From a virus: a DNA stretch of 41,514 nucleotides. A program made the position numbers and the translations under genes. The first letter of the stretch is position 1, and each line of letters opens with the position of its first letter. The notes beneath the pieces were generated by a model that was given only the letters and a program-made list of their open reading frames with translations, had not been told where the DNA came from and searched no databases. The stretch is taken from the IMG/VR virus record IMGVR_UViG_3300046656_000525, positions 1 through 41,514 of that record; one strand, given 5' to 3'. Shown in pieces: positions 2,202-23,391 of the stretch.

Positions 2202-3235
2202 TAGGCAATTCAAATCGACACATCTATCTTGGCGGCTACGATGTTACTCGCTATGTCCTGAATACCAAAGTGCCAACGGCTATGCAGTTTAAGCCTGAAT
2301 GGGGAGAATTGCCTGCAATTTCGAGATTAGAGTTTGATTTACTGAATGATACCGGGATTTTCTCTTCTAAAGGCCTTAAAAGTGTTTTTAATAATATAGA
2401 TTTGACAAGCATTACAGCCAAGGTCACGTTAGAACAGGGCTCAACAGTAACAACTGAGTGGGATGGCGTTGTTGAAAACATATTAGAGGACCATAGGACA
2501 CGCCGAACGACAGTTACTGGCATTACTCAATTCTCGAAATTACTTGATTCCCCTTCACTCGTGACTCTTGGCGCTAATACGCCCTCTGAATTATCCAGAT
2601 TGGTATTTGGTTTATACAATATCCCAGTGGATGAAATCGCCTATGCCAAAGCTAACTCGCTATTATCAGGTTTAGTGCTAGCACAGGTCGATCCGAACCT
2701 ATTGGATAGCCATCTAACATTGATGGAATTGCAAAAACAACTCGCAGCGGCCGGATACGCCCGGATTTATTCAATAAATGGATTAATGGTATATGAAGTT
2801 TTTGATGTAGAAGCCACGCAAGCCCCCGGTTTCAGTATAACAGAGCGCCAAATAATGGAACACCCAGTCATAACCAAAGAGACCCGTTTACCCACTGCAT
2901 ACACGGTAGAAACCCTATTTGGCCGCACTGAATCGCCTGATTGGCAAACCGGTAGCAATTCCAAGAATTTGGATTTTGGCCCAAATGCAGCAGTGAAAAT
3001 CACGAGTTTAAGTGCTGGCCAGCAAGTGGCAACCCAATGGGCCGTAATTGACCGATTACAGACAAGCCGTATTGAGTTTGCAGTTTTGGATGATATCGGC
3101 TTAATGTTTGATCTGAACACGTTTATAAACTTCACTTGCGAGCCAATCGCCATCATAAATGCCACTATGGAAATTATCGGAATCGATCGCTCTGATCATC
3201 GATATACCAAACTGACAGGACGGGTGGCATCATGA
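2198..3235 (+). CDS. Probable tail hub / baseplate protein
   Basis: A 345-residue protein. The ATG at 2198 overlaps the preceding TGA and has AAGGGAG upstream; an earlier in-frame ATG at 2132 lies deep in the previous gene and is less likely. The N-terminus (YLGGYDVTRYVL, then alternating beta strands) and the mixed alpha/beta middle resemble tail-hub proteins that cap the tube. It lies between the beta-helix protein and the large fibre protein, which supports a tail-tip role. There is no enzymatic motif. Function rests mainly on position. Confidence 0.6.
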   Translation: MIGNSNRHIYLGGYDVTRYVLNTKVPTAMQFKPEWGELPAISRLEFDLLNDTGIFSSKGLKSVFNNIDLTSITAKVTLEQGSTVTTEWDGVVENILEDHRTRRTTVTGITQFSKLLDSPSLVTLGANTPSELSRLVFGLYNIPVDEIAYAKANSLLSGLVLAQVDPNLLDSHLTLMELQKQLAAAGYARIYSINGLMVYEVFDVEATQAPGFSITERQIMEHPVITKETRLPTAYTVETLFGRTESPDWQTGSNSKNLDFGPNAAVKITSLSAGQQVATQWAVIDRLQTSRIEFAVLDDIGLMFDLNTFINFTCEPIAIINATMEIIGIDRSDHRYTKLTGRVAS

Positions 3236-5070
3236 GATTGACAAACATAAACCCACGGCCAATCACAGAGACCGGGAAGCAGGTTGCCACGCGTGTTAGA
3301 TCAAACACTAAGAATTACCCAGACAATCTACGCGGGGTCTTCAAAAATATCTCAGGGGATAACGTCCAATTCGGACCCCTGGATAAGGGGCAAGGGCAAG
3401 AATATATTCGCTTTACCTTTGAGATTTCTGATGAGGCGCTGGCCTACAAAACTAACGAGACTTGGACCCTTGACTTATCCAATACTGGTATAAATCTCAG
3501 CACTTTTGCGGGCGGGCGCGTGGACACGCTTGCACAGGAAGCGGATCGGCAATATTTAGCTTGGGCATTTCTGGATAGCAATTTTGAATGGGCTGGAATC
3601 GGAATTACCCGCAAACCGTATTCAGCATTTTCAGCAGTGAGCTCAGGCTCAAAGGGATCGACTGGGACATTTACAGTCACAAATGGATATCAGTTTACCA
3701 TAGGTGCGCGCGTGTATGTGCATAATGACAAGGGTACGACAAACCTGATTGAGTCAAATTACGGCACGATAGCCTCAATAGCCAGCTCGACAAGCATAAC
3801 AATCACCCTCGATAACGATGCAAGTTATGGGGTTAACATCACGGCTGCCACGGGTGGCTACATTTTACAGCATAACGAGTTTAGGCCTTATATCGTAGCC
3901 TCGGGATCACAAACGCTATATTCAAATTATTATTGTCTGATTGGTGAAATCGATACGGTTTCCACAAACATTTTCAACGCTAAAATCCTACCTATTCAGA
4001 GCGGTGAAATCAGCTTCCAAGAGACGGCCGTAACTGTGAAAGAACAGACCCTTCCATTAATACAGGGGTGGTTTTTCGGCGCTGTCACTAACAAGAAGGT
4101 CTTGATCGATCCGTGGCGGGACTGGATCCAAAGGAAATATTACCTATTCCCAGTTGGTGAAAAGGTCTTCAAAGTCCCATATTCAGCGACCAATCCGCTT
4201 TTCATTGACTTATCCACAACAGGCCTGAATGGTATTATCGATACAATAGCCTTCCAAAACGGCCGTCAATATCTTGTCTGGGCAATAACCAATGGGCCTA
4301 ATAACGCGGTATCTACAATCGTGGCCACCCGCAAGCCTTTTTCCGCATGGACAACATTCACTGGCTCGGGTGCTAAGGGCAGCACCACTTTCCAAATCAC
4401 AAACGTAACCAATGGTTATCAGTTCACAATTGGCGCTAGAGCAGTGGTGCGAAATACCGTAGGGACGGCCCCGCTTTTTGAGTATAACTGGGGAACTATT
4501 ACAGCTCAGACAAACACAAGTCTCACATTGACATTGGATAACGTGGCGAATTATGGCACTGCAATCTCAGCAGGTACGGGCGGTGAGGTAAAACAATGGG
4601 ATACCTTTTACCCTTGGGTAGTCAGCTCAGGCTCACATACTCTTTATGCTCAGAATTACGCATTAATGGGTGAGATATATACCGACCTTAGCACAGGCAA
4701 TATCCACAACGCCTATCGAGTCGATGATGAGTATCGTACTGGCCAACGGAAAACAGCAACGGATCAAACAACGGCGGTGGTCGCGGCTACGGCCTTCACT
4801 TTTGCCCGCGATATCCCGCTTTGGGCCGATAAGATCAACGCCCAAATGTATGTAGAGCAGAATAAACCACTTGTGAATACATTGCTTTTTAATCATAATG
4901 GCAATGACTTGGTTTGCTTTATCACAACGGCAGACGGCTACACGTTTATTGATAATACAGGCTATGTGGATTTGGATCCATATGCTTCATTGCAGTGGCA
5001 GAAAAATCACACAATTCGGGCAGCGGTGCTAGTGCTTGATTTTAGGGTAAAAGGCGGTATGCGTTTATGA
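3232..5070 (+). CDS. Tail fibre / receptor-binding protein with internal duplication
   Basis: A 612-residue protein joined to the previous gene by an ATGA overlap. Two segments of about 150 residues (roughly 95-245 and 330-485) are clear copies of each other: both contain NGYQFTIGAR, a run ending in LDN, a Gly-rich turn, a YP/YI-V-SGS strand and a final LMGEI/LIGEI. Composition is beta-rich (Thr, Ser, Asn, Gly) with no helices, as expected for a fibre. It is the last tail gene before lysis, a common place for the receptor-binding protein. The duplication is directly visible; receptor binding is inferred. Confidence 0.7.
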   Translation: MRLTNINPRPITETGKQVATRVRSNTKNYPDNLRGVFKNISGDNVQFGPLDKGQGQEYIRFTFEISDEALAYKTNETWTLDLSNTGINLSTFAGGRVDTLAQEADRQYLAWAFLDSNFEWAGIGITRKPYSAFSAVSSGSKGSTGTFTVTNGYQFTIGARVYVHNDKGTTNLIESNYGTIASIASSTSITITLDNDASYGVNITAATGGYILQHNEFRPYIVASGSQTLYSNYYCLIGEIDTVSTNIFNAKILPIQSGEISFQETAVTVKEQTLPLIQGWFFGAVTNKKVLIDPWRDWIQRKYYLFPVGEKVFKVPYSATNPLFIDLSTTGLNGIIDTIAFQNGRQYLVWAITNGPNNAVSTIVATRKPFSAWTTFTGSGAKGSTTFQITNVTNGYQFTIGARAVVRNTVGTAPLFEYNWGTITAQTNTSLTLTLDNVANYGTAISAGTGGEVKQWDTFYPWVVSSGSHTLYAQNYALMGEIYTDLSTGNIHNAYRVDDEYRTGQRKTATDQTTAVVAATAFTFARDIPLWADKINAQMYVEQNKPLVNTLLFNHNGNDLVCFITTADGYTFIDNTGYVDLDPYASLQWQKNHTIRAAVLVLDFRVKGGMRL

Positions 5071-5333
5071 AAGGCGAACTTGAGCGGCTTGCAATATTAG
5101 AAACTGAGGTGGTCAATATGGAAAAAATAACCGACGGGCTTATAAGCAAACTGGAAGAGCTTAACACGGCACAAGTGAGCGGCTTTAATCAGATAAACTT
5201 GCACTTATCCGATTTGAATAACAAAATAATCCAATGGGAAAAGCGCTGGAATTGGTTTTCCCGCTTGACTCTATCGATCTTAGCTGCTATTATTGGTGGC
5301 GTACTAATGCTTTGGATAAAGGGTATGCAGTGA
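5067..5333 (+). CDS. XhlA-like coiled-coil membrane protein (lysis accessory)
   Basis: An 88-residue protein with a long N-terminal coiled coil (residues about 1-55, heptad Leu/Ile pattern) followed by one C-terminal transmembrane helix (about 65-84, Leu/Ile/Gly rich). This layout matches the XhlA/haemolysin family found beside phage holins. It is joined to the fibre gene by ATGA and precedes the holin and endolysin genes. A lysis-accessory role is inferred from architecture and position; a small tail or membrane protein of other function remains possible. Confidence 0.6.
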   Translation: MKGELERLAILETEVVNMEKITDGLISKLEELNTAQVSGFNQINLHLSDLNNKIIQWEKRWNWFSRLTLSILAAIIGGVLMLWIKGMQ

Positions 5334-5614
5334 TATTCGATAAAATGTTACCCGATATAAAAAAAGCAGCGACGGGTGTAGGTGCAAGCCAAGAGTCAAT
5401 CGATAATTTTGAAAGCTGGGTAGAGATCTATACACCTGATTGGAATCAAGATTGGAATAGCTTCCGAGTGGCGGCTGGCCCAGACCGAGAATTACTGATT
5501 ACCCTGCTAAATGCGGTGGCTGAATTGACGATGACTTTCCGGCGAGAGCTGAACAAGACCTTAATCGTAGAGCGGAAGTTAAACTCTTTTAAAACAACAA
5601 AATATGATATATAA
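5330..5614 (+). CDS. Small protein of unknown function in the lysis region
   Basis: 94 residues from a GTG at 5330 that overlaps the stop of the XhlA-like gene, with AAAGGG upstream; an ATG five codons later is the alternative start. The protein is soluble-looking and mostly helical with several Trp. It lacks transmembrane segments and recognisable motifs. Its tight coupling to the XhlA-like gene suggests co-expression with the lysis genes. Confidence 0.6.
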   Translation: MIFDKMLPDIKKAATGVGASQESIDNFESWVEIYTPDWNQDWNSFRVAAGPDRELLITLLNAVAELTMTFRRELNKTLIVERKLNSFKTTKYDI

Positions 5615-10914: not shown

Positions 10915-11121
10915 ATGATTTTTTTCTGCCAAAACCTAAAATGCAACTTCTACGCCATGTGGGAATGCGAGCGCTGTGGTTGTAAAACCTGCAATAAGCA
11001 CTTCGCGTCTAAAATGCCCTTGCTTTGCGAGTGGTGTGCGCGTGGCGAACGAGAAGACTGGGAAGATAAGCGAGCTAATGGACGAGAGAAGGTCGAAGAG
11101 ATGGAGGCCGAAAATGGCTAA
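10915..11121 (+). CDS. Cys-rich zinc-binding mini-protein 1
   Basis: 68 residues behind a perfect AGGAGG. Cysteine pairs CQNLKC, CERCGCKTC, then His in NKHF, and CEWC give a cross-brace zinc-finger pattern similar to B-box or AN1-like fingers. The tail is acidic and charged. First of six consecutive Cys-rich genes, overlapping the next by 8 bases. Zinc binding is inferred from Cys/His spacing; target unknown. Confidence 0.75.
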   Translation: MIFFCQNLKCNFYAMWECERCGCKTCNKHFASKMPLLCEWCARGEREDWEDKRANGREKVEEMEAENG

Positions 11122-11323
11122 TGGAATAATTGAATGTACATATTGTAAAAATGATGCGGATTACAAATGCGATGGATGCGGTTATCATATTTGCAGATTT
11201 CATTCAAATTGCAATTCAACTCGATGGGTTCTACACAATCTTTGCCGCGGGTGCTTTAATGAATGGGAGAATATGAAAAAAGCGGAAGTTAAACGGCTTG
11301 CGACAACAGAGAGGGGGGAATAA
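11114..11323 (+). CDS. Cys-rich zinc-binding mini-protein 2
   Basis: 69 residues from the ATG at 11114; the frame is open to 10976, but this ATG has GGAGG upstream and follows the overlap pattern of the array. Motifs: CTYC, CDGCGYHICRFHSNC, then CRGC. Same arrangement as protein 1, with His residues in the third pair, so the two are likely paralogues. The C-terminal tail is Lys/Glu-rich. Confidence 0.7.
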   Translation: MANGIIECTYCKNDADYKCDGCGYHICRFHSNCNSTRWVLHNLCRGCFNEWENMKKAEVKRLATTERGE

Positions 11324-11324
11324 A

Positions 11325-11516
11325 ATGGCTAATTGTAAATGCAAAGATAAATATTGTGGCAACTGTCATGGCTGCGGTATTAAGGTCCGTTGGTGTATGG
11401 ATGATTGTGTGTTTGTGGATATGAGCGGATTTGGATTGGACGCGATGGCTTATTGGTGCAAAAAATGCTGGTCTGAAATTGAAAAAGAGAGTGAGGGAAA
11501 AAATGAAAAAGAATAA
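11325..11516 (+). CDS. Cys-rich zinc-binding mini-protein 3
   Basis: 63 residues starting MANCKCKDKYC behind GAGGGGGG. About eleven cysteines: CKC, CGNCHGCG, WCMDDC and WCKKCW. The start MAN and its DNA context resemble protein 2, suggesting duplication. Its end overlaps the next gene by 14 bases. Enough cysteines for two zinc sites. Confidence 0.7.
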   Translation: MANCKCKDKYCGNCHGCGIKVRWCMDDCVFVDMSGFGLDAMAYWCKKCWSEIEKESEGKNEKE

Positions 11517-11706
11517 TTGGATTTGCGGGGATTGCAGGGAGAGTATCCCAAAAGGCAAAGAAGTTTATTTAGAGAGCCTTATAATATGCCAAGGATGTAA
11601 TCAAGAATATCATCAAGAGTATTGGGACTCGAAGGAATCTTTAGGCGCATCTTCCAAGATAGAACAAGAACAAATGACGGAAGAAATAGAAAGTGAGGAC
11701 GAATAG
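11503..11706 (+). CDS. Cys-rich zinc-binding mini-protein 4
   Basis: 67 residues from the ATG at 11503 behind GTGAGGG. CGDC near the start and CQGCNQEYHQEYW later form a CxxC-CxxC-His pattern, like RING or PHD-type half sites. The acidic tail ends in SEDE, the same ending as protein 5, and the 20 bases across this stop and the next start are repeated exactly at the next junction. Confidence 0.7.
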   Translation: MKKNNWICGDCRESIPKGKEVYLESLIICQGCNQEYHQEYWDSKESLGASSKIEQEQMTEEIESEDE

Positions 11707-11918
11707 ATGAAGCTCTTATGCTACGGTTGTGGGGCGCAAGCCGTTTATCAATGCGATTCTTGTCTTAACTTCATTTGCGAAGCGGATACAATCATATTGG
11801 AAGGCGCTTTTAGTTGCTGTCATCTATGCACAGAGGTTATTTCTGATCATAGAAAAAGTTTGGGAAAGGAAACAAAATCAGCGCCCCTAACCCAAAAAAG
11901 TGAGGACGAATAGATGAA
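11692..11918 (+). repeat. Exact 20-base direct repeats at gene junctions
   Basis: The same 20 bases lie at 11692-11711 and 11899-11918. Each covers the last codons of one gene (SEDE), its stop and the ATG of the next. A second repeat, AAAATCAGCGCCCC, lies at 11874-11887 and 12087-12100. Together they indicate tandem duplication of a gene-sized unit of about 207-213 bases. Confidence 0.8.
11707..11913 (+). CDS. Cys-rich zinc-binding mini-protein 5
   Basis: 68 residues. CYGCGAQAVYQCDSC, then FICEAD, and CCHLC give the same cross-brace spacing as proteins 1 and 2. The tail ends KSEDE, as in protein 4 (ESEDE). The ribosome site is the GTGAGGACG inside the preceding gene. Likely a zinc-binding adaptor; partner unknown. 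Confidence 0.7.
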   Translation: MKLLCYGCGAQAVYQCDSCLNFICEADTIILEGAFSCCHLCTEVISDHRKSLGKETKSAPLTQKSEDE

Positions 11919-12084
11919 AAGCTGTTGGTGCATTTTCGCATTCCATAAATGTCAACACTGTAAAAAATGGATTTGTGAAAAACATGGGGTCTATCACAAA
12001 CATTTATATGGTCGTAATAAAAGCGGCTGGATTTGTTTTAATTGTGAAGAAAGACATTTTGGTTATGATGGGCCAGATTGTTAA
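11914..12084 (+). CDS. Cys-rich zinc-binding mini-protein 6
   Basis: 56 residues starting MKSCWCIFAFHKCQHCKKWICEK. CxC, CxxC, C and CFNC cysteines with several His give a B-box-like pattern closely similar to proteins 1, 2 and 5. It ends the array; a promoter and the replication gene follow. It has the same ribosome site repeat as protein 5. Confidence 0.7.
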   Translation: MKSCWCIFAFHKCQHCKKWICEKHGVYHKHLYGRNKSGWICFNCEERHFGYDGPDC

Positions 12085-14174: not shown

Positions 14175-14383
14175 TGGGTAAATGGCTTAAATTGACGGGG
14201 GCTTCGGATGGAAGTACAATTATATTGCTTTTCGGCAAGCGCGGTGCTTTTCGCGTTGAGATAAGCGAAGGCATAACATCTTGCGTGATACGCGAAAATA
14301 GTCATAATACCACTGGTATATTGGTCAAAGAAACTCCAGAACAAATCTACGATATGCTAATGGAGGAAGAGAAAAATGATTAA
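14174..14383 (+). CDS. Small beta-rich protein (FlbD-like appearance)
   Basis: 69 residues. The strand pattern (KWLKLTGASDGSTIILLFGK, then VEISEG and IRENSHNTTGILVKETPEQIYDML) recalls the short FlbD-like proteins common in phages. The ribosome site AGGAGA is inside the preceding gene. The similarity is impressionistic; function unknown. Confidence 0.6.
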   Translation: MGKWLKLTGASDGSTIILLFGKRGAFRVEISEGITSCVIRENSHNTTGILVKETPEQIYDMLMEEEKND

Positions 14384-15089
14384 CATCTCAATGCGAGACC
14401 CAAAGAACCTTAAAGAGTTCAGCCCGTTTGCACCATTTTGGGTCGATTTCCCAATGTATAAATGGGATCACAAATCAGTCCTAATCTGCATTCACGGCTA
14501 CAATACGGAAGACAAAGAAGCCCAAGAAATGGGTGCCAATCTGGACCGATTCCGCAATGGACGTCCCTTCAACCTTACTATGTTAAGCTGGCCTTCAAAT
14601 GGCAAGGCACTCAACTACACGGCAGACCGATGGGACGCCGTCGAAGCTGGGAAGCGATTGGCAGCTTTGGTTACCAGCCTTAATTTTCAAGGAAAGCGGG
14701 TGTACTTACTGGCTCACTCAATGGGTAACTATGTAGTGGCCAATGCACTCAGCCTCTTAAAATATGGGGACGTCTATCGCTGGTATTCCTTGGCGGGTGA
14801 TATAAGCGCTTCTGAATGTGAGCCTAACGGGAAGTGGGGGGTCCAATGTGGGAAGACCGTATTTGCTCACTTCTATTACACCCGATCTGATGGCGTTTTG
14901 AAGTGGATTAGCACCCCACGGCATTTGTGGAATCGGCGAATAGGTGAAGTCGGCTTGCCTGATAATCATCCGTCAAACTGGTATAATGAAGACGCCCGAT
15001 CCCGTTGGGGGGTGAAGTCGCATAGTGGGTACTTTGAAGTACCTGCGATTTTTGAAGAGATTTTTGATCAAATTGTGAGGGAAAATTAG
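14376..15089 (+). CDS. Alpha/beta hydrolase (DUF900-like)
   Basis: 237 residues. SVLICIHGYNTE (about 34-45) is the oxyanion-side HG motif. VYLLAHSMGNYV holds the nucleophile elbow with Ser115. Asp172 (TRSDGVL) and His216 (KSHSGYF) are in the right order to complete a triad. LSWPSNGKALNYTADRWDAVEAG between them is typical of the DUF900 branch of serine esterases. No signal peptide, so it acts in the cytoplasm or at lysis. Substrate is unknown: a lipid, a peptide or a small ester. Unusual cargo for a phage early region. Confidence 0.8.
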   Translation: MINISMRDPKNLKEFSPFAPFWVDFPMYKWDHKSVLICIHGYNTEDKEAQEMGANLDRFRNGRPFNLTMLSWPSNGKALNYTADRWDAVEAGKRLAALVTSLNFQGKRVYLLAHSMGNYVVANALSLLKYGDVYRWYSLAGDISASECEPNGKWGVQCGKTVFAHFYYTRSDGVLKWISTPRHLWNRRIGEVGLPDNHPSNWYNEDARSRWGVKSHSGYFEVPAIFEEIFDQIVREN

Positions 15090-15606: not shown

Positions 15607-15956
15607 TGGCAACTTTATTGAAAGAAGTCCTAAGAAAAGCTCGCAAGCTGCATACTTGTTGTGAATGTGCCTGCAAAATAGAGAGAGGCCAAAGATATCA
15701 TTTTACAACGTATGCGCAGGACGGGGAAGTGTATAGCTCTAAGCTCTGCTCTGAATGTGAAGAAATGCAAAATTGGCTCAACGCAAATCACCAAAAATAC
15801 GATATCGATTTAAGTGAGGTCTATATTGGCCAAATGTGGGAAGTGATTTCAGAGATTGCTTGGGATAAAAAAGGCTTAGAAGATTTATTATTCAGCGCAC
15901 AATTAAGCGATGCCGCTGAAATAAAAGTGAGGGCTAAGGTCTATGTCCGAGACTAA
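15606..15956 (+). CDS. Zinc-ribbon-like phage protein
   Basis: 116 residues. KARKLHTCCECACKIERGQRY and then KLCSECEEM give two CxxC-type pairs, a four-Cys zinc site found in a widespread small phage protein family of unknown role. GAGAATA ribosome context. The remaining 70 residues are helical. Confidence 0.75.
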   Translation: MATLLKEVLRKARKLHTCCECACKIERGQRYHFTTYAQDGEVYSSKLCSECEEMQNWLNANHQKYDIDLSEVYIGQMWEVISEIAWDKKGLEDLLFSAQLSDAAEIKVRAKVYVRD

Positions 15957-16197
15957 CACTCAAAACATACTCGATAAACTAATAGCCGCTGGATATCATC
16001 CTAGTTTCTTTGAGGCGCTGCTTGGGATGGAAGCGGGAGAAGGCTGGGAAATTGACAGGACGTTATATAAACTTTATTATGATCCCAAAACAGGGCCTGA
16101 GCTATGCTTGTGGGATAAAGAGAAAAATAAATGGGTTGGCTGCGCTATTGATATTGAATGCTTAAAAGGAATCTGGACAAGACATGGCCATAGGTAA
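15943..16197 (+). CDS. Small protein of unknown function
   Basis: 84 residues, overlapping both neighbours by 14 bases, rich in Trp and charged residues (GWEIDRTLYKLYYDPKTG). No motif recognised; ends GIWTRHGHR. Confidence 0.65.
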   Translation: MSETNTQNILDKLIAAGYHPSFFEALLGMEAGEGWEIDRTLYKLYYDPKTGPELCLWDKEKNKWVGCAIDIECLKGIWTRHGHR

Positions 16198-16585
16198 TCG
16201 CCCACCCGCACCCAAGACTCCCAAGATAAAAAACAGCGAGCTAATCCAATGGTACAAGTACAACTTCCCCTACTGCGAGCTAAGCCGCTTGGAAGGGAAG
16301 TACATTACAACGGGCGTAGAGACTCATCACATAGAACCCGGGCTTGGGCGCACAGATGAACTGTGGAATCTAATCAGAATAGTTCACTGGAAACATATGC
16401 TTTGCACGACTCACATATATGGCGCTCAAGCCGTGCAGAACAACTATATATGCTTTGGTCTTAAGTTTATCAAAGGTGAAATAAAACAAGCTAAACTTGA
16501 AGAGCTTGGCAAGTGGGACGAAGTGCGGTTTGTAGTCAAGGAATTAAGGCCTATTTATAATCAAGTCAATGGGATTAAGTCATGA
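16184..16585 (+). CDS. HNH-like endonuclease
   Basis: 133 residues. TGVETHHIEPGLGRTDELWN with Asn62, followed by HWKHMLC, forms an HNH pattern: His48/His49, Asn62 and His68/His71. CELS at about 31 may be the remnant of a zinc pair that stabilises larger HNH folds. HNH proteins nick or cut DNA in packaging, recombination or homing. This one sits in the accessory block, well away from terminase, so a packaging role is less likely. Confidence 0.65.
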   Translation: MAIGNRPPAPKTPKIKNSELIQWYKYNFPYCELSRLEGKYITTGVETHHIEPGLGRTDELWNLIRIVHWKHMLCTTHIYGAQAVQNNYICFGLKFIKGEIKQAKLEELGKWDEVRFVVKELRPIYNQVNGIKS

Positions 16586-16806
16586 AAAAACCAACAAAAT
16601 ATCATTTACGATGGCGATTCGCAACAGAACTAAAGAGCTTTCGCCATCGGCATTGGCTGACACAACGCTATTTAGGGCATATTATAGGCTACGATGCAGG
16701 ACAGGTCGCAATGTTTGAACGGCGAAAACGATACCCAAGCGCTTTAGAAATACAAATCGCTTATAATAAAATGCGAGAATACGCGGCGGGGAAGGCTAGT
16801 GACTAA
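16582..16806 (+). CDS. XRE-type helix-turn-helix regulator
   Basis: 74 residues. LKSFRHRHWLTQRYLGHIIG, then GQVAMFERRKRYPSALEIQIAY matches the Cro/CI-type HTH with the recognition helix around GYDAGQVAMFERR. Very basic N-terminus. Coupled by ATGA to the HNH-like gene. Probably represses or modulates nearby genes. Confidence 0.75.
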   Translation: MKKPTKYHLRWRFATELKSFRHRHWLTQRYLGHIIGYDAGQVAMFERRKRYPSALEIQIAYNKMREYAAGKASD

Positions 16807-17014
16807 ATCAGAAGCTCTAAATCTACTCAAGCAAGGCGTTGGCATAGACCTTGGCGATGATTGTTTCTGGACAGAGACATCAGCACTGCTCGGTATGCGT
16901 ATCTGCACGCATGGGCGTTTGAAATATAAGACCTTTTCAACCCGCGCCTTTATGACATTTGAACAATTCTTAGAACGCTATCCTGAAGAGGGGTACACTA
17001 TCCATGACGTATGA
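16799..17014 (+). CDS. Repeated small-domain protein A
   Basis: 71 residues from a GTG (TAGTG overlap; GGGGAAGG upstream). Starts MTKSEALNLLKQGVGI, the helix-then-beta pattern shared by the next three genes. Such 60-70 residue single-domain proteins (helix, then a small beta barrel) are common in phages. DUF2829/Tad2, an inhibitor of Thoeris defence, has a similar opening. Family membership is not established here. Confidence 0.65.
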   Translation: MTKSEALNLLKQGVGIDLGDDCFWTETSALLGMRICTHGRLKYKTFSTRAFMTFEQFLERYPEEGYTIHDV

Positions 17015-17225
17015 ACAGGCACTACCCAAACTTATCCGTGGCGAACAATGGTTTTGCGGCGGATGGCGATTTGCTATCCTAACCGACGGAAAGTTGTATT
17101 ACATGGATATGTTTTCAGCACCCGTCAAAGTATGGCCTACACAATTGGCGGAAGTAAAGCAATCTCAGCTTTGGAACCCAGTCAGGGAACTAAGCTATAA
17201 ACCAAAAACAGAGGTAACACAATGA
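17004..17225 (+). CDS. Repeated small-domain protein B
   Basis: 73 residues. Starts MTYEQALPKLIRGEQWFCGGWR, then ILTDGKLYYMD and a closing WNPVREL. The same layout as protein A: N-terminal helix with A-xx-L-xx-G, a Trp after the turn, and a strand with a DG turn. Overlaps A by 11 bases. Confidence 0.65.
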   Translation: MTYEQALPKLIRGEQWFCGGWRFAILTDGKLYYMDMFSAPVKVWPTQLAEVKQSQLWNPVRELSYKPKTEVTQ

Positions 17226-17626
17226 CAAGACGTGAAATGTGGCAAGCGTTATTGGATGGGAAGCAGGTTATTCATCCAAGGTTAAGTTTTAATTATATTT
17301 TCATGGATCGTGAAGGAAACCCTATCGTAATGACTGATTTTATGCCATCGGGTACTTTGCGAACTGATGAAATTGATGATAAAACCTATGATACTGGCTG
17401 GGAAATCTATTCCCCAATCTGCACGCGTGAACAAGCCATCGAAGGACTTAAACTCGGGGAGAAGTGGAAGGCGCTGGATTTTGTAGAGCACGGATATAAA
17501 TATACAGAACTGACGAATAATTTCGATCTAAACCATATAGGCATCATAACACCATTGGTGACACCAATCCCAATCCTATCCTGCAATCGCTGGCAAAGAG
17601 TCTATGACAAAGGAGAAACCCAATGA
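17222..17626 (+). CDS. Repeated small-domain protein C (two domains)
   Basis: 134 residues, two copies of the domain in tandem. Copy one (1-65) starts MTRREMWQALLDGKQV and closes GWEIYSP. Copy two starts CTREQAIEGLKLGEKWKALD and closes with NRWQRVYD. The internal duplication parallels the duplication of whole genes around it. ATGA-coupled to gene B. Confidence 0.65.
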   Translation: MTRREMWQALLDGKQVIHPRLSFNYIFMDREGNPIVMTDFMPSGTLRTDEIDDKTYDTGWEIYSPICTREQAIEGLKLGEKWKALDFVEHGYKYTELTNNFDLNHIGIITPLVTPIPILSCNRWQRVYDKGETQ

Positions 17627-18036
17627 CCCGCAGAGAAGCTATACCCTATATGCTCGACAAGGGGGCGTATAATAAGAATCATGAAATAAAATATGGGTTT
17701 CGGTCTAAAGTCTTTATTAATGATTTTGGCCGAGTTGTGCAAATTTGGCAGGACGGCGCAACAACAAGCGTAGGGGTGGTTTACAGCAGCTCGCTTTATA
17801 ACGACGGCTGGGAACCTTGGGAAGACCCAATCGAATACGTCGATGGGTTTACTGCGCTAAAGGCGATGGCTGAAAATGACGGAGAGATTTGGATATGGGA
17901 TCTTGATATGGTGCGATATCGAATTACAGCGAGATTGCAATTTTTAGATGATATTGGTTGGCGAGATTCACTGATTAGCGCTGAAATGCTCTTTGATAAA
18001 CTCTGGCATAAATACATACCCAAGGAGAATAAGTAG
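17623..18036 (+). CDS. Repeated small-domain protein D (two domains)
   Basis: 137 residues. Starts MTRREAIPYMLDKG, almost the same opening as protein C, closes the first copy with GWEPWEDP, then a second, diverged copy begins FTALKAMAENDGEIWIWDLD. Ribosome site AAAGGAGA. ATGA-coupled to C. Function unknown. Confidence 0.65.
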   Translation: MTRREAIPYMLDKGAYNKNHEIKYGFRSKVFINDFGRVVQIWQDGATTSVGVVYSSSLYNDGWEPWEDPIEYVDGFTALKAMAENDGEIWIWDLDMVRYRITARLQFLDDIGWRDSLISAEMLFDKLWHKYIPKENK

Positions 18037-18234
18037 ATGGGAATCTTAGAACGCTTAGCGAATTTAAAAGAATACCTAAAAGGAATATTGCCACCTGATC
18101 GCCTATCGACGGCCGAGGTTTATAGGCAAATCGATTTAATCGCTATCGAGTACAAGGCAGCGCACAAAATGCAATCCCGCCGCGAAATTCTTGAGAAAAT
18201 GATAAATGGCGAACTTGACGATACCCAAGGATAA
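18037..18234 (+). CDS. Small helical protein of unknown function
   Basis: 65 residues behind AAGGAGA, directly adjoining the previous stop. Predicted all-helical with basic and acidic faces. The last codons (ELDDTQG) fall in a 15-base repeat that recurs after the next gene. Confidence 0.6.
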   Translation: MGILERLANLKEYLKGILPPDRLSTAEVYRQIDLIAIEYKAAHKMQSRREILEKMINGELDDTQG

Positions 18235-18467
18235 ATCATGAAAAAGCAACATACATCCCGCGGATTTGCATATCGCAAGTTTGACGATATATATAAGTAC
18301 AAATGTATTATACAAGAATCCTCATTGGCAGATAAGCCCGCAATCTGGCTTGGGACCACTGAGGAACGGATGCATATTGATAGGCCATTGGCGCGAAAAT
18401 TAGTGAAATATTTGAATAAGTTTATAGAAACTGGGAATATTTGACGGCTACCCTTGACGATACCCAA
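18214..18467 (+). repeat. 15-base direct repeat CTTGACGATACCCAA
   Basis: Identical copies at 18214-18228 (end of one gene) and 18453-18467 (just after the next gene). They bracket the 68-residue gene at 18238 and could be a trace of its insertion or duplication. TTGACG looks like a -35, but no -10 follows either copy. Confidence 0.6.
18238..18444 (+). CDS. Small basic protein of unknown function
   Basis: 68 residues, basic, starting MKKQHTSRGFAYRKFDD. A strand-rich N-terminus is followed by a C-terminal helix (RPLARKLVKYLNKFI). It is bracketed by 15-base repeats. AAGGATA precedes the start. Confidence 0.55.
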   Translation: MKKQHTSRGFAYRKFDDIYKYKCIIQESSLADKPAIWLGTTEERMHIDRPLARKLVKYLNKFIETGNI

Positions 18468-20650: not shown

Positions 20651-21085
20651 ATGCCAACATTAGTAGAATATCTTGCTACATTCCCGGGGCGCATGTTTTT
20701 GCTGCTTTCGGAAGATCCAGTATATACTCTACATAATACGGTCAGTAACGATTACGTGACTATCGCTAAAATGGAAGCCTATACAATGGCTGATTGCGAA
20801 AAAATAATGACATTGATACGCGATAACGAAAATTGGGAAATCCTTGATGAAAAAATGACTTTTGAAGAAGCGACACATTATTTGGTTACTGCCGCCGCCT
20901 CTGAAATCAGTGCAGCGGTACAAACGGATTTGAATCCTGATATTTATATGCAGATCTATTCGACAGATATAATCCCGCAGCAAATCAAGTTTTTTCTCAA
21001 GGAAGATAATTCAATGGCTGATCTTATTTTCCTTACAGGCATGTTCCAAACACGATGCTGGGTGATATATACAATCCCAGAATAA
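20651..21085 (+). CDS. Unknown protein before the glycosyltransferases
   Basis: 144 residues with a GAGAGG site. Mostly helix and strand with no Cys or catalytic motif; it looks like two halves, the second beginning MTFEEATHYLV. No homology recognised. It is the last gene before the glycan cassette. Confidence 0.6.
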   Translation: MPTLVEYLATFPGRMFLLLSEDPVYTLHNTVSNDYVTIAKMEAYTMADCEKIMTLIRDNENWEILDEKMTFEEATHYLVTAAASEISAAVQTDLNPDIYMQIYSTDIIPQQIKFFLKEDNSMADLIFLTGMFQTRCWVIYTIPE

Positions 21086-21094
21086 AGGTACTTT

Positions 21095-22252
21095 ATGAAA
21101 ATATTGATAATCGGTTTCCATCCCTATCATTGGTCAGGCCTCTCAAAAGCGGGGGCTATGATATTGCGAGCCTTATGTGATTTAGGCCACGAATGCCAAT
21201 ATATGGTTATCCCCAAAGGCGGCGACCATTTAGGTGCTGGAAGATTGCCTCAATTCAACGGGACGCCGTGTTTTATGCAGGCCCAAACGAATTATACCCA
21301 GAAAGCACTTGCTGAAAAGTATGATTTGATGATCTCGATTGGCGATTTATGGTATTTCGATGCGTGTTATGAATTGACTAATGCCCAAGCAATCCCATGG
21401 GCGGCTTATTTTGGGATCGAAGGTCTTGCATTGCCGCCGATTTCTCGCGTCGGTAAAAATGAAGTTATCAAAAATCAAACAATTTTAGACTCGGTATCCA
21501 AGATCTGGGCCTATACTCGCGCAACTGTTGACGCATTACAGCGATCAAGTGGTATTAATGGTGTCGGGTCGATCGGGATTTTGCCTCATTATGGGGAACC
21601 TAAACCTTATTCAATTGTAGGCTTGAAAGACAAGTTGCGGATCCCTAAAGACAAAAAGATAGCGCTATATGTGGGTGGAAACTATTTACGCAAAGGGGTC
21701 GATTTATGGGTGCAAGCGCTTAAAAACTCAAGCAATGACTGGGTCGGTTATATGCACATGCCAGCTTTCGACGAATTAGGCATTGATTTGCGTAGCTTAG
21801 TACCACAACTCGGATTAGAAGGTCGATTGTATTGTTGGGATGATTTAAGCCCTATTCTAAATCAGAGGGAAATCCCTGATATGTTTGTTCAAGGGCTTTA
21901 TTATGAATGCGATTTGTTTTTCCACCCGCACCGCGGAGAAGGCTTTGGCTTAGCCATCCAAGACGCATTGATGAGTCCAATCCGTTGCGCAATTTCAGCC
22001 GCGGGATCAGGAAGCGAGCTTGGTATTAATAAAAAATATTTGGTCAAGGCAGAGCGCCCTTGCTATGTGAGGGCAGGCGGTATCCAGCATCAAATGCAAG
22101 AGATGGAAAATATTCAATCTTTTGATCAGTATTACAAAAATGCACCGAAAACTAATGATTGGCAACCTTATACTTATCAAGAGTTTAAGGACCAAGTCCA
22201 GTTTTTGTTATCAGATCCAATTGAACCGAAATTATGGAGGCAATTCCCATGA
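21095..22252 (+). CDS. GT4-type glycosyltransferase 1
   Basis: 385 residues, GT-B fold. The N-terminus KILIIGFHPYHWSGLSKAG is the Rossmann start with the Gly-rich acceptor loop. IALYVGGNYLRKGVDLW (about 188-204) is the second Rossmann start with the GN..RKG motif. HRGEGFGLAIQDAL (about 278-291) is the EX7E-type nucleotide-sugar site. It transfers a sugar from a nucleotide or lipid donor to an unknown acceptor. No signal or membrane anchor, so cytoplasmic. Overlaps the next gene by ATGA. Confidence 0.85.
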   Translation: MKILIIGFHPYHWSGLSKAGAMILRALCDLGHECQYMVIPKGGDHLGAGRLPQFNGTPCFMQAQTNYTQKALAEKYDLMISIGDLWYFDACYELTNAQAIPWAAYFGIEGLALPPISRVGKNEVIKNQTILDSVSKIWAYTRATVDALQRSSGINGVGSIGILPHYGEPKPYSIVGLKDKLRIPKDKKIALYVGGNYLRKGVDLWVQALKNSSNDWVGYMHMPAFDELGIDLRSLVPQLGLEGRLYCWDDLSPILNQREIPDMFVQGLYYECDLFFHPHRGEGFGLAIQDALMSPIRCAISAAGSGSELGINKKYLVKAERPCYVRAGGIQHQMQEMENIQSFDQYYKNAPKTNDWQPYTYQEFKDQVQFLLSDPIEPKLWRQFP

Positions 22253-23391
22253 CAATCTATTATTTAGGCCACTTCGCTGATTATTCAGGCTATGGCAAGG
22301 CCGCACGGGATAATGTTAAATTGCTGGATTCCCTTGGCTATAATGTGATTTGTGGAAATATCAGTCATGATAACGAACTTATCCACCGAGGGCAATACTG
22401 GGTAGATCGAATCGCAGCAGGGCGTGATTTGCCAGAAGAGATCGATATTTTTATTGTCCACAAATCGCCTTGGAATCAGGATAATATTATAGAGCGGATC
22501 GATCAAGCGCCAGCAGCCCAGAAAGCTAAGCAAAAAATCTATTATACGGTTTTTGAAACGAGTCGCTGGCCTGAGCAGTGGAAAGAGCCTTTAAGCTATT
22601 TTGATAAAATCCTAACACCTAGCACTTGGCAAAAAGAAGCCGCTTTGGCTTTACTTGGTGATGGGTGGAAAGATAAAATCTCAGTAGTGCCTCACATTAT
22701 AGAGCCTACCCTGCATGAGCCCCTCAAAAATGAAATATTCACATTTTATTCTGATTTTTCACGGATTAGCCCCCGAAAAGGGCTGGATATCCTGCTCAAG
22801 GCGTATTTCTGGGCATTCACAAACAAAGATAAGGTGAAACTAAAACTGAAATTGCCGTCCAGTGATGCTTCCCGTCGTGAATGGCTCAAGTTACATCAAG
22901 AGGCCTATGATTGCTTTCGCTGGAAGGCCTCTGAATTGCCCATTATTGAAATCAACGAATCGCTTCTAAGTGATGAACAAATGCTGAAAAATATCCTTGA
23001 ATGCGATTGCTATGTTTGTCCAGCCCGTGGCGAAGGCTTTGCGATATCATTAGCCACTGCGGCAGTGAATGGTAAACCTTGCTTGGCGCCTGCAATTGTG
23101 GAATCGGCTGATGATATCGATGATGTTTTTTCATGGCACGCTGATTATTTATCGCCGAATTGTAGATTCCATGCGGAACAAATGTCTGTGGTTTCTGATG
23201 AGTTTTGGCGGGTAAAAATGATAATCAATACCGATGATATGTATTGGTTAGAAGGTGATTTAATTAGATTAAAACAAGCGATGAGCCATGCGGTTAACCA
23301 TAAAACCGATTTTATACCAGATTCCACCTGTATTGACTATCTAAGCGCTGAAAATGTGGGTAAATTTTTCACAGAGGCTTTTAACGCATGA
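22249..23391 (+). CDS. GT4-type glycosyltransferase 2
   Basis: 380 residues. The ATG at 22249 is chosen because GGAGG lies at proper distance and the ATGA overlap matches the neighbours; an ATG five codons earlier overlaps the ribosome site. YYLGHFADYSGYGKAARDN forms the first Rossmann loop, SRISPRKGLDILLKAY (about 170-185) the middle motif, and ARGEGFAISLATAAV (about 258 on) the donor-binding site. Diverged from glycosyltransferase 1, so the two probably add different sugars in series. Confidence 0.85.
   Translation: MTIYYLGHFADYSGYGKAARDNVKLLDSLGYNVICGNISHDNELIHRGQYWVDRIAAGRDLPEEIDIFIVHKSPWNQDNIIERIDQAPAAQKAKQKIYYTVFETSRWPEQWKEPLSYFDKILTPSTWQKEAALALLGDGWKDKISVVPHIIEPTLHEPLKNEIFTFYSDFSRISPRKGLDILLKAYFWAFTNKDKVKLKLKLPSSDASRREWLKLHQEAYDCFRWKASELPIIEINESLLSDEQMLKNILECDCYVCPARGEGFAISLATAAVNGKPCLAPAIVESADDIDDVFSWHADYLSPNCRFHAEQMSVVSDEFWRVKMIINTDDMYWLEGDLIRLKQAMSHAVNHKTDFIPDSTCIDYLSAENVGKFFTEAFNA

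Follow-up and report, generated by a model that had tools for sequence, protein, structure and literature searches.

A run of overlapping small phage genes with at least two related domains, one of them with a predicted Tad2-like fold

Tad2 is a phage protein that sequesters immune signals of bacteria, and is known as an anti-Thoeris protein. It has been described as a homotetramer with pockets for gcADPR or cyclic dinucleotides; several loops, among them beta1-beta2 and beta3-beta4, form these pockets, and cyclic dinucleotide binding goes through an insertion that lies between beta2 and beta5 (PMC12043709). Ligands shift within the Tad2 family, since that of MoTad2 is His-ADPR and that of SPO1 Tad2 is gcADPR (PMC13299392, 2026). 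The locus considered here can also be compared with a family of small phage proteins of the phrog_6670/phrog_3474 type, reached through a weak tblastn match to a protein of Salmonella phage gmork_2. With that protein as tblastn query (E ≤ 1), 385 places were found in 370 phage records, mostly one place per genome, unlike the array described below. A literature search, largely outside subscription journals, found no description of tandem arrays of Tad2-like proteins.

The window, that is, the whole stretch of DNA analysed, is a virus record, unclassified and 41,514 bases long. An earlier note had singled out four adjacent genes at 16799-18036, with overlapping stops and starts and MTxxEA or MTRRE N-termini, as holding six copies of one small domain. 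The coordinates are correct; the overlaps are 11 nt between g1 and g2 and a 4-nt ATGA at both g2/g3 and g3/g4, and the N-termini read MTKSEA, MTYEQA, MTRREM, and MTRREA. The run of overlapping genes begins at 16582, g1 to g4 continue it, and two more small genes follow directly. In each of the four array genes the annotated frame is the one favoured by codon usage. The features are as follows:

16582..16806, + strand: small HTH-like gene directly upstream of g1, which it overlaps by 8 nt; weak HTH_31 and phrog_8 matches
16799..17014, + strand: g1, 71 aa, GTG start; proposed copy 1 (MTKSEA...GYTI), supported at the level of the helix only
17004..17225, + strand: g2, 73 aa; proposed copy 2 (MTYEQA), marginal
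17222..17626, + strand: g3, N-terminus MTRREM; copy 3a in its N-half and copy 3b in its C-half
17222..17419, + strand: copy 3a (g3 N-half), predicted Tad2-fold domain; phrog_6670 match, E 0.0011
17420..17626, + strand: copy 3b (g3 C-half), likely second copy; low pLDDT here in the g3 model
17623..18036, + strand: g4, N-terminus MTRREA; copy 4a in its N-half and proposed copy 4b in its C-half
17623..17832, + strand: copy 4a (g4 N-half), family member
17833..18036, + strand: copy 4b (g4 C-half), proposed copy, unsupported
18037..18234, + strand: next gene in the run, 65 aa; weak HMM rank only, no clear copy
18238..18444, + strand: phrog_3849 protein (E 1.1e-20), an unrelated conserved phage gene ending the run

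The array is surrounded by the HTH-like gene and by genes for ERF, Gp157, a DUF900 hydrolase, an AntA/KilAC antirepressor, and a NinB-like protein, a neighbourhood consistent with an early region. The DUF900 alpha/beta hydrolase lies at 14376-15089 (+ strand; E 1.5e-18), within this region. At 21095-23391 (+ strand) there are two phrog_2170 glycosyltransferases, with the NinB-like gene on one side and the terminase on the other. Promoter-like sites near the array were about as numerous as expected by chance, and tRNA and Rfam searches matched nothing. Close relatives of the phage were not found when g3, g4, g2, the terminase, and the phrog_3849 gene served as queries in tblastn and IMG/VR scans; the terminase gave only distant matches, all below 60% identity and at about 22-26% among the matches listed.

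Identity among the window copies is 17-31%, and pairwise comparisons of the six were mostly at shuffle level, the exceptions being copy 2 against 3b (p 0.006) and 3a against 4a (p 0.04). A first family profile, built from outside proteins without any window sequence, put g3 at the top of the 428 window ORFs (E 7e-6). The same profile placed g1, g2, and g4 third, fourth, and fifth, each with a score that alone lies inside the shuffled-sequence range, and this ranking is partly circular in that g1 to g4 had been chosen by their MTxxEA starts. A DNA pattern scan of viral contigs gave further family members, and wider profiles were scored against a null set of about 1,460-1,510 unrelated ORFs. With the widest of these, copies 3a, 4a, 1, and 3b outscored every null ORF (1,464 of them for copy 1); with wider profiles, copy 2 was marginal (p 0.01-0.03) and copy 4b gained no support (p 0.13-0.14). 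When the N-terminal helix was removed, 3a still scored (0 of 500 shuffles), as did 4a (p 0.022) and 3b (p 0.042), while copies 1 (p 0.19), 2 (p 0.66), and 4b were at chance. Alignment to the outside family with hhalign gave 97% for copy 3a and 88.6% for copy 4a over 62 columns, and less than 3% for copy 4b. Full-length matches to the phrog_6670/3474 profiles were obtained for 3a and 4a, and partial ones or none for the remaining copies; 3a and 4a have the helix and a terminal GW in common with this family.

By these profile comparisons, copies 3a and 4a can firmly be assigned to the phrog_6670/phrog_3474 type family as full domains, and 3b is a likely further member. Copy 1 is supported through its N-terminal helix, copy 2 is marginal and likewise depends on the helix, and copy 4b is unsupported. 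The six copies in four genes originally counted are thus retained for 3a, 4a, and probably 3b, are helix-based for 1 and 2, and lack support for 4b, leaving g3 as a likely two-copy gene and g4 with a C-half unsupported as a copy. The Trp-ending strand attributed to all of them does not extend to copy 1, which ends GYTI. Two other + strand stretches, 15943-16197 and 20651-21085, look copy-like by eye (Trp-ending strands and an internal MTFEEA); the profiles give no support for counting them as further degenerate copies.

The earlier note had also seen a likeness to Tad2 (DUF2829, PF11195). The PF11195 profile found nothing at E ≤ 10 in g1 to g4, nor any match elsewhere in the window genome, and Pfam and NCBIfam held no credible match for the four genes. 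Among outside family members, seven of 12 match PF11195 below the cut-off (best E 1e-4), and one array gene of Klebsiella phage FBKp27 clears it. Profile comparison of the family with Tad2 gave a probability of 88-96%, over the N-terminal ~32 columns only; direct comparison of the window domains with Tad2 reached 26% at most. The motif WNG followed by K, N, or D occurs in nine of 10 Tad2 sequences and in none of the six window copies, and no family or window member compared has the WNGK loop. Window domains and family members are also shorter, at 58-73 aa, than the compared Tad2 domains, at 77-97 aa.

AlphaFold2 models of g3 and g4, made from alignments of IMG/VR family members and the window sequences, had mean pLDDT values of 66.4 and 59.6, respectively (moderate or low confidence). 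Residues 1-64 of the g3 model matched all seven Tad2 entries listed (from SPO1, Myroides odoratus, and SptTad2) with Z 6.3-7.1 and rmsd 2.3-2.8 over 60-62 residues, although Z values below 8 can reflect a common arrangement. These entries held ranks 1 to 7, and the next chain was at Z 2.4. Foldseek alone returned Tad2 for the g3 model only at E 3. From a viral structure library the same model drew DUF2829/Tad2-like proteins, as well as phage proteins, uncharacterised and 122-133 aa long, with alignments spanning all of g3. For the g4 model, Tad2 was not among the matches listed. Copy 3a is therefore predicted, on a model of moderate confidence, to have the Tad2 monomer fold, like that of SPO1 gp34.65. 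The proposed likeness survives in this predicted fold and in the weak PF11195 matches of outside members; it fails for g1 to g4 themselves at the level of PF11195 and the WNGK loop.

The suggestion that such arrays be sought in other phages was borne out in four cases. In Klebsiella phage GADU21 six of the seven matches fall in 41671-42826, in partly overlapping genes, and Klebsiella phage FBKp27 has five in 42629-43584. In both of these Efbeekayvirus genomes adjacent, partly overlapping genes carry divergent domain copies, as in the window, but these are single-domain genes. The GADU21 copies share just 16-29% identity among themselves, yet three have FBKp27 counterparts at 65-95%, which fits copies that keep separate roles. 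In Lactobacillus phage Semele, six genes of 117-131 aa follow one another at 113015-116093, similar in length to g3 and g4 (~120-130 aa), with Tad2-like N-halves. The C-halves of these tandem genes (region 112500-117500) are a separate conserved domain type (YRL...D...W), to which comparisons of the window C-halves were negative or marginal (4b p 0.04). An IMG/VR contig (region 300-6500) has five small copies, in adjacent groups of two and three, plus a true Tad2 gene at 5222-5446. A relative of single-copy type, in a T5-like phage, sits in the left terminal repeat, known as the first-step-transfer, host-takeover region.

A reading that would accommodate these results, and for which the chances seem about even, is that the array encodes early-operon minimal Tad2-fold proteins for host takeover or counter-defence, binding immune signals or host proteins. 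The proteins, with one or two domains of about 60-70 aa each, would be expressed from a single early polycistronic run and would act early, by oligomerising. Their partners could be small immune signals, as with Tad2, or host proteins, with host defence or metabolism blocked as a result, and divergent copies may have different partners. Partners other than gcADPR would be expected, because the WNGK loop and most of the extra residues of Tad2 are missing. Diversification against several targets, as the earlier note had it, would agree with the arrays elsewhere, which fit the idea and do not prove it.

It could instead be that the domain is common to g3 and g4 only, and that g1, g2, and the g4 C-half are small early proteins unrelated to it that converged on an amphipathic MTxxEA helix. 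The mostly shuffle-level pairwise similarity and the chance-level scores of copies 1, 2, and 4b once the helix is removed make this a tenable if somewhat doubtful account; copy 1 nevertheless outscores all null ORFs, and array members elsewhere are clearly related at identities as low as 16-29%. That the Tad2 match is simply a generic alpha-beta arrangement, with a domain unrelated to Tad2, seems improbable. The Z values under 8 and the short N-terminal span of the sequence link to Tad2 would allow it, but Tad2 entries take all of the top seven places, well clear of the next chain, the whole domain is covered, and the sequence links independently indicate the Tad2 family.

Instead of small signals, the same Tad2-like fold might bind host proteins or nucleic acid, thereby taking over transcription, replication, or CRISPR-Cas. 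The absence of the WNGK loop throughout the family and window members and the position of a relative in the T5-like early host-takeover region point this way. So do chains in the PDB that bear the names AcrIIA7 and "Inhibitor of Type II CRISPR-Cas system"; they match the SPO1 Tad2 sequence and so tie the fold to more than one activity. No result here points to a protein partner or interface, and this reading is considered rather unlikely.

Returning to minimal Tad2-fold proteins of the early operon, such arrays extend the fold to short, double, and tandem forms missed by PF11195, so that the number of Tad2-like proteins in phages has probably been underestimated. Should the copies differ in the signals they bind, the arrays would be ready-made counter-defence collections and could reveal immune signals not yet known. 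A broader and distinctly speculative version is that several phage lineages carry tandem-amplified sets of minimal Tad2-fold proteins, in which every member is adapted to its own immune signal or host target; the window array, with its double-domain proteins, would be a deeply divergent case.

Two other parts of the window showed repetition by eye. The translation of a large protein encoded at 3232-5070 (+ strand) has an internal duplication, and at 10915-12084 (+ strand) about six small ORFs in a row are Cys-rich and zinc-ribbon-like, apparently giving this phage another array of repeated small domains.
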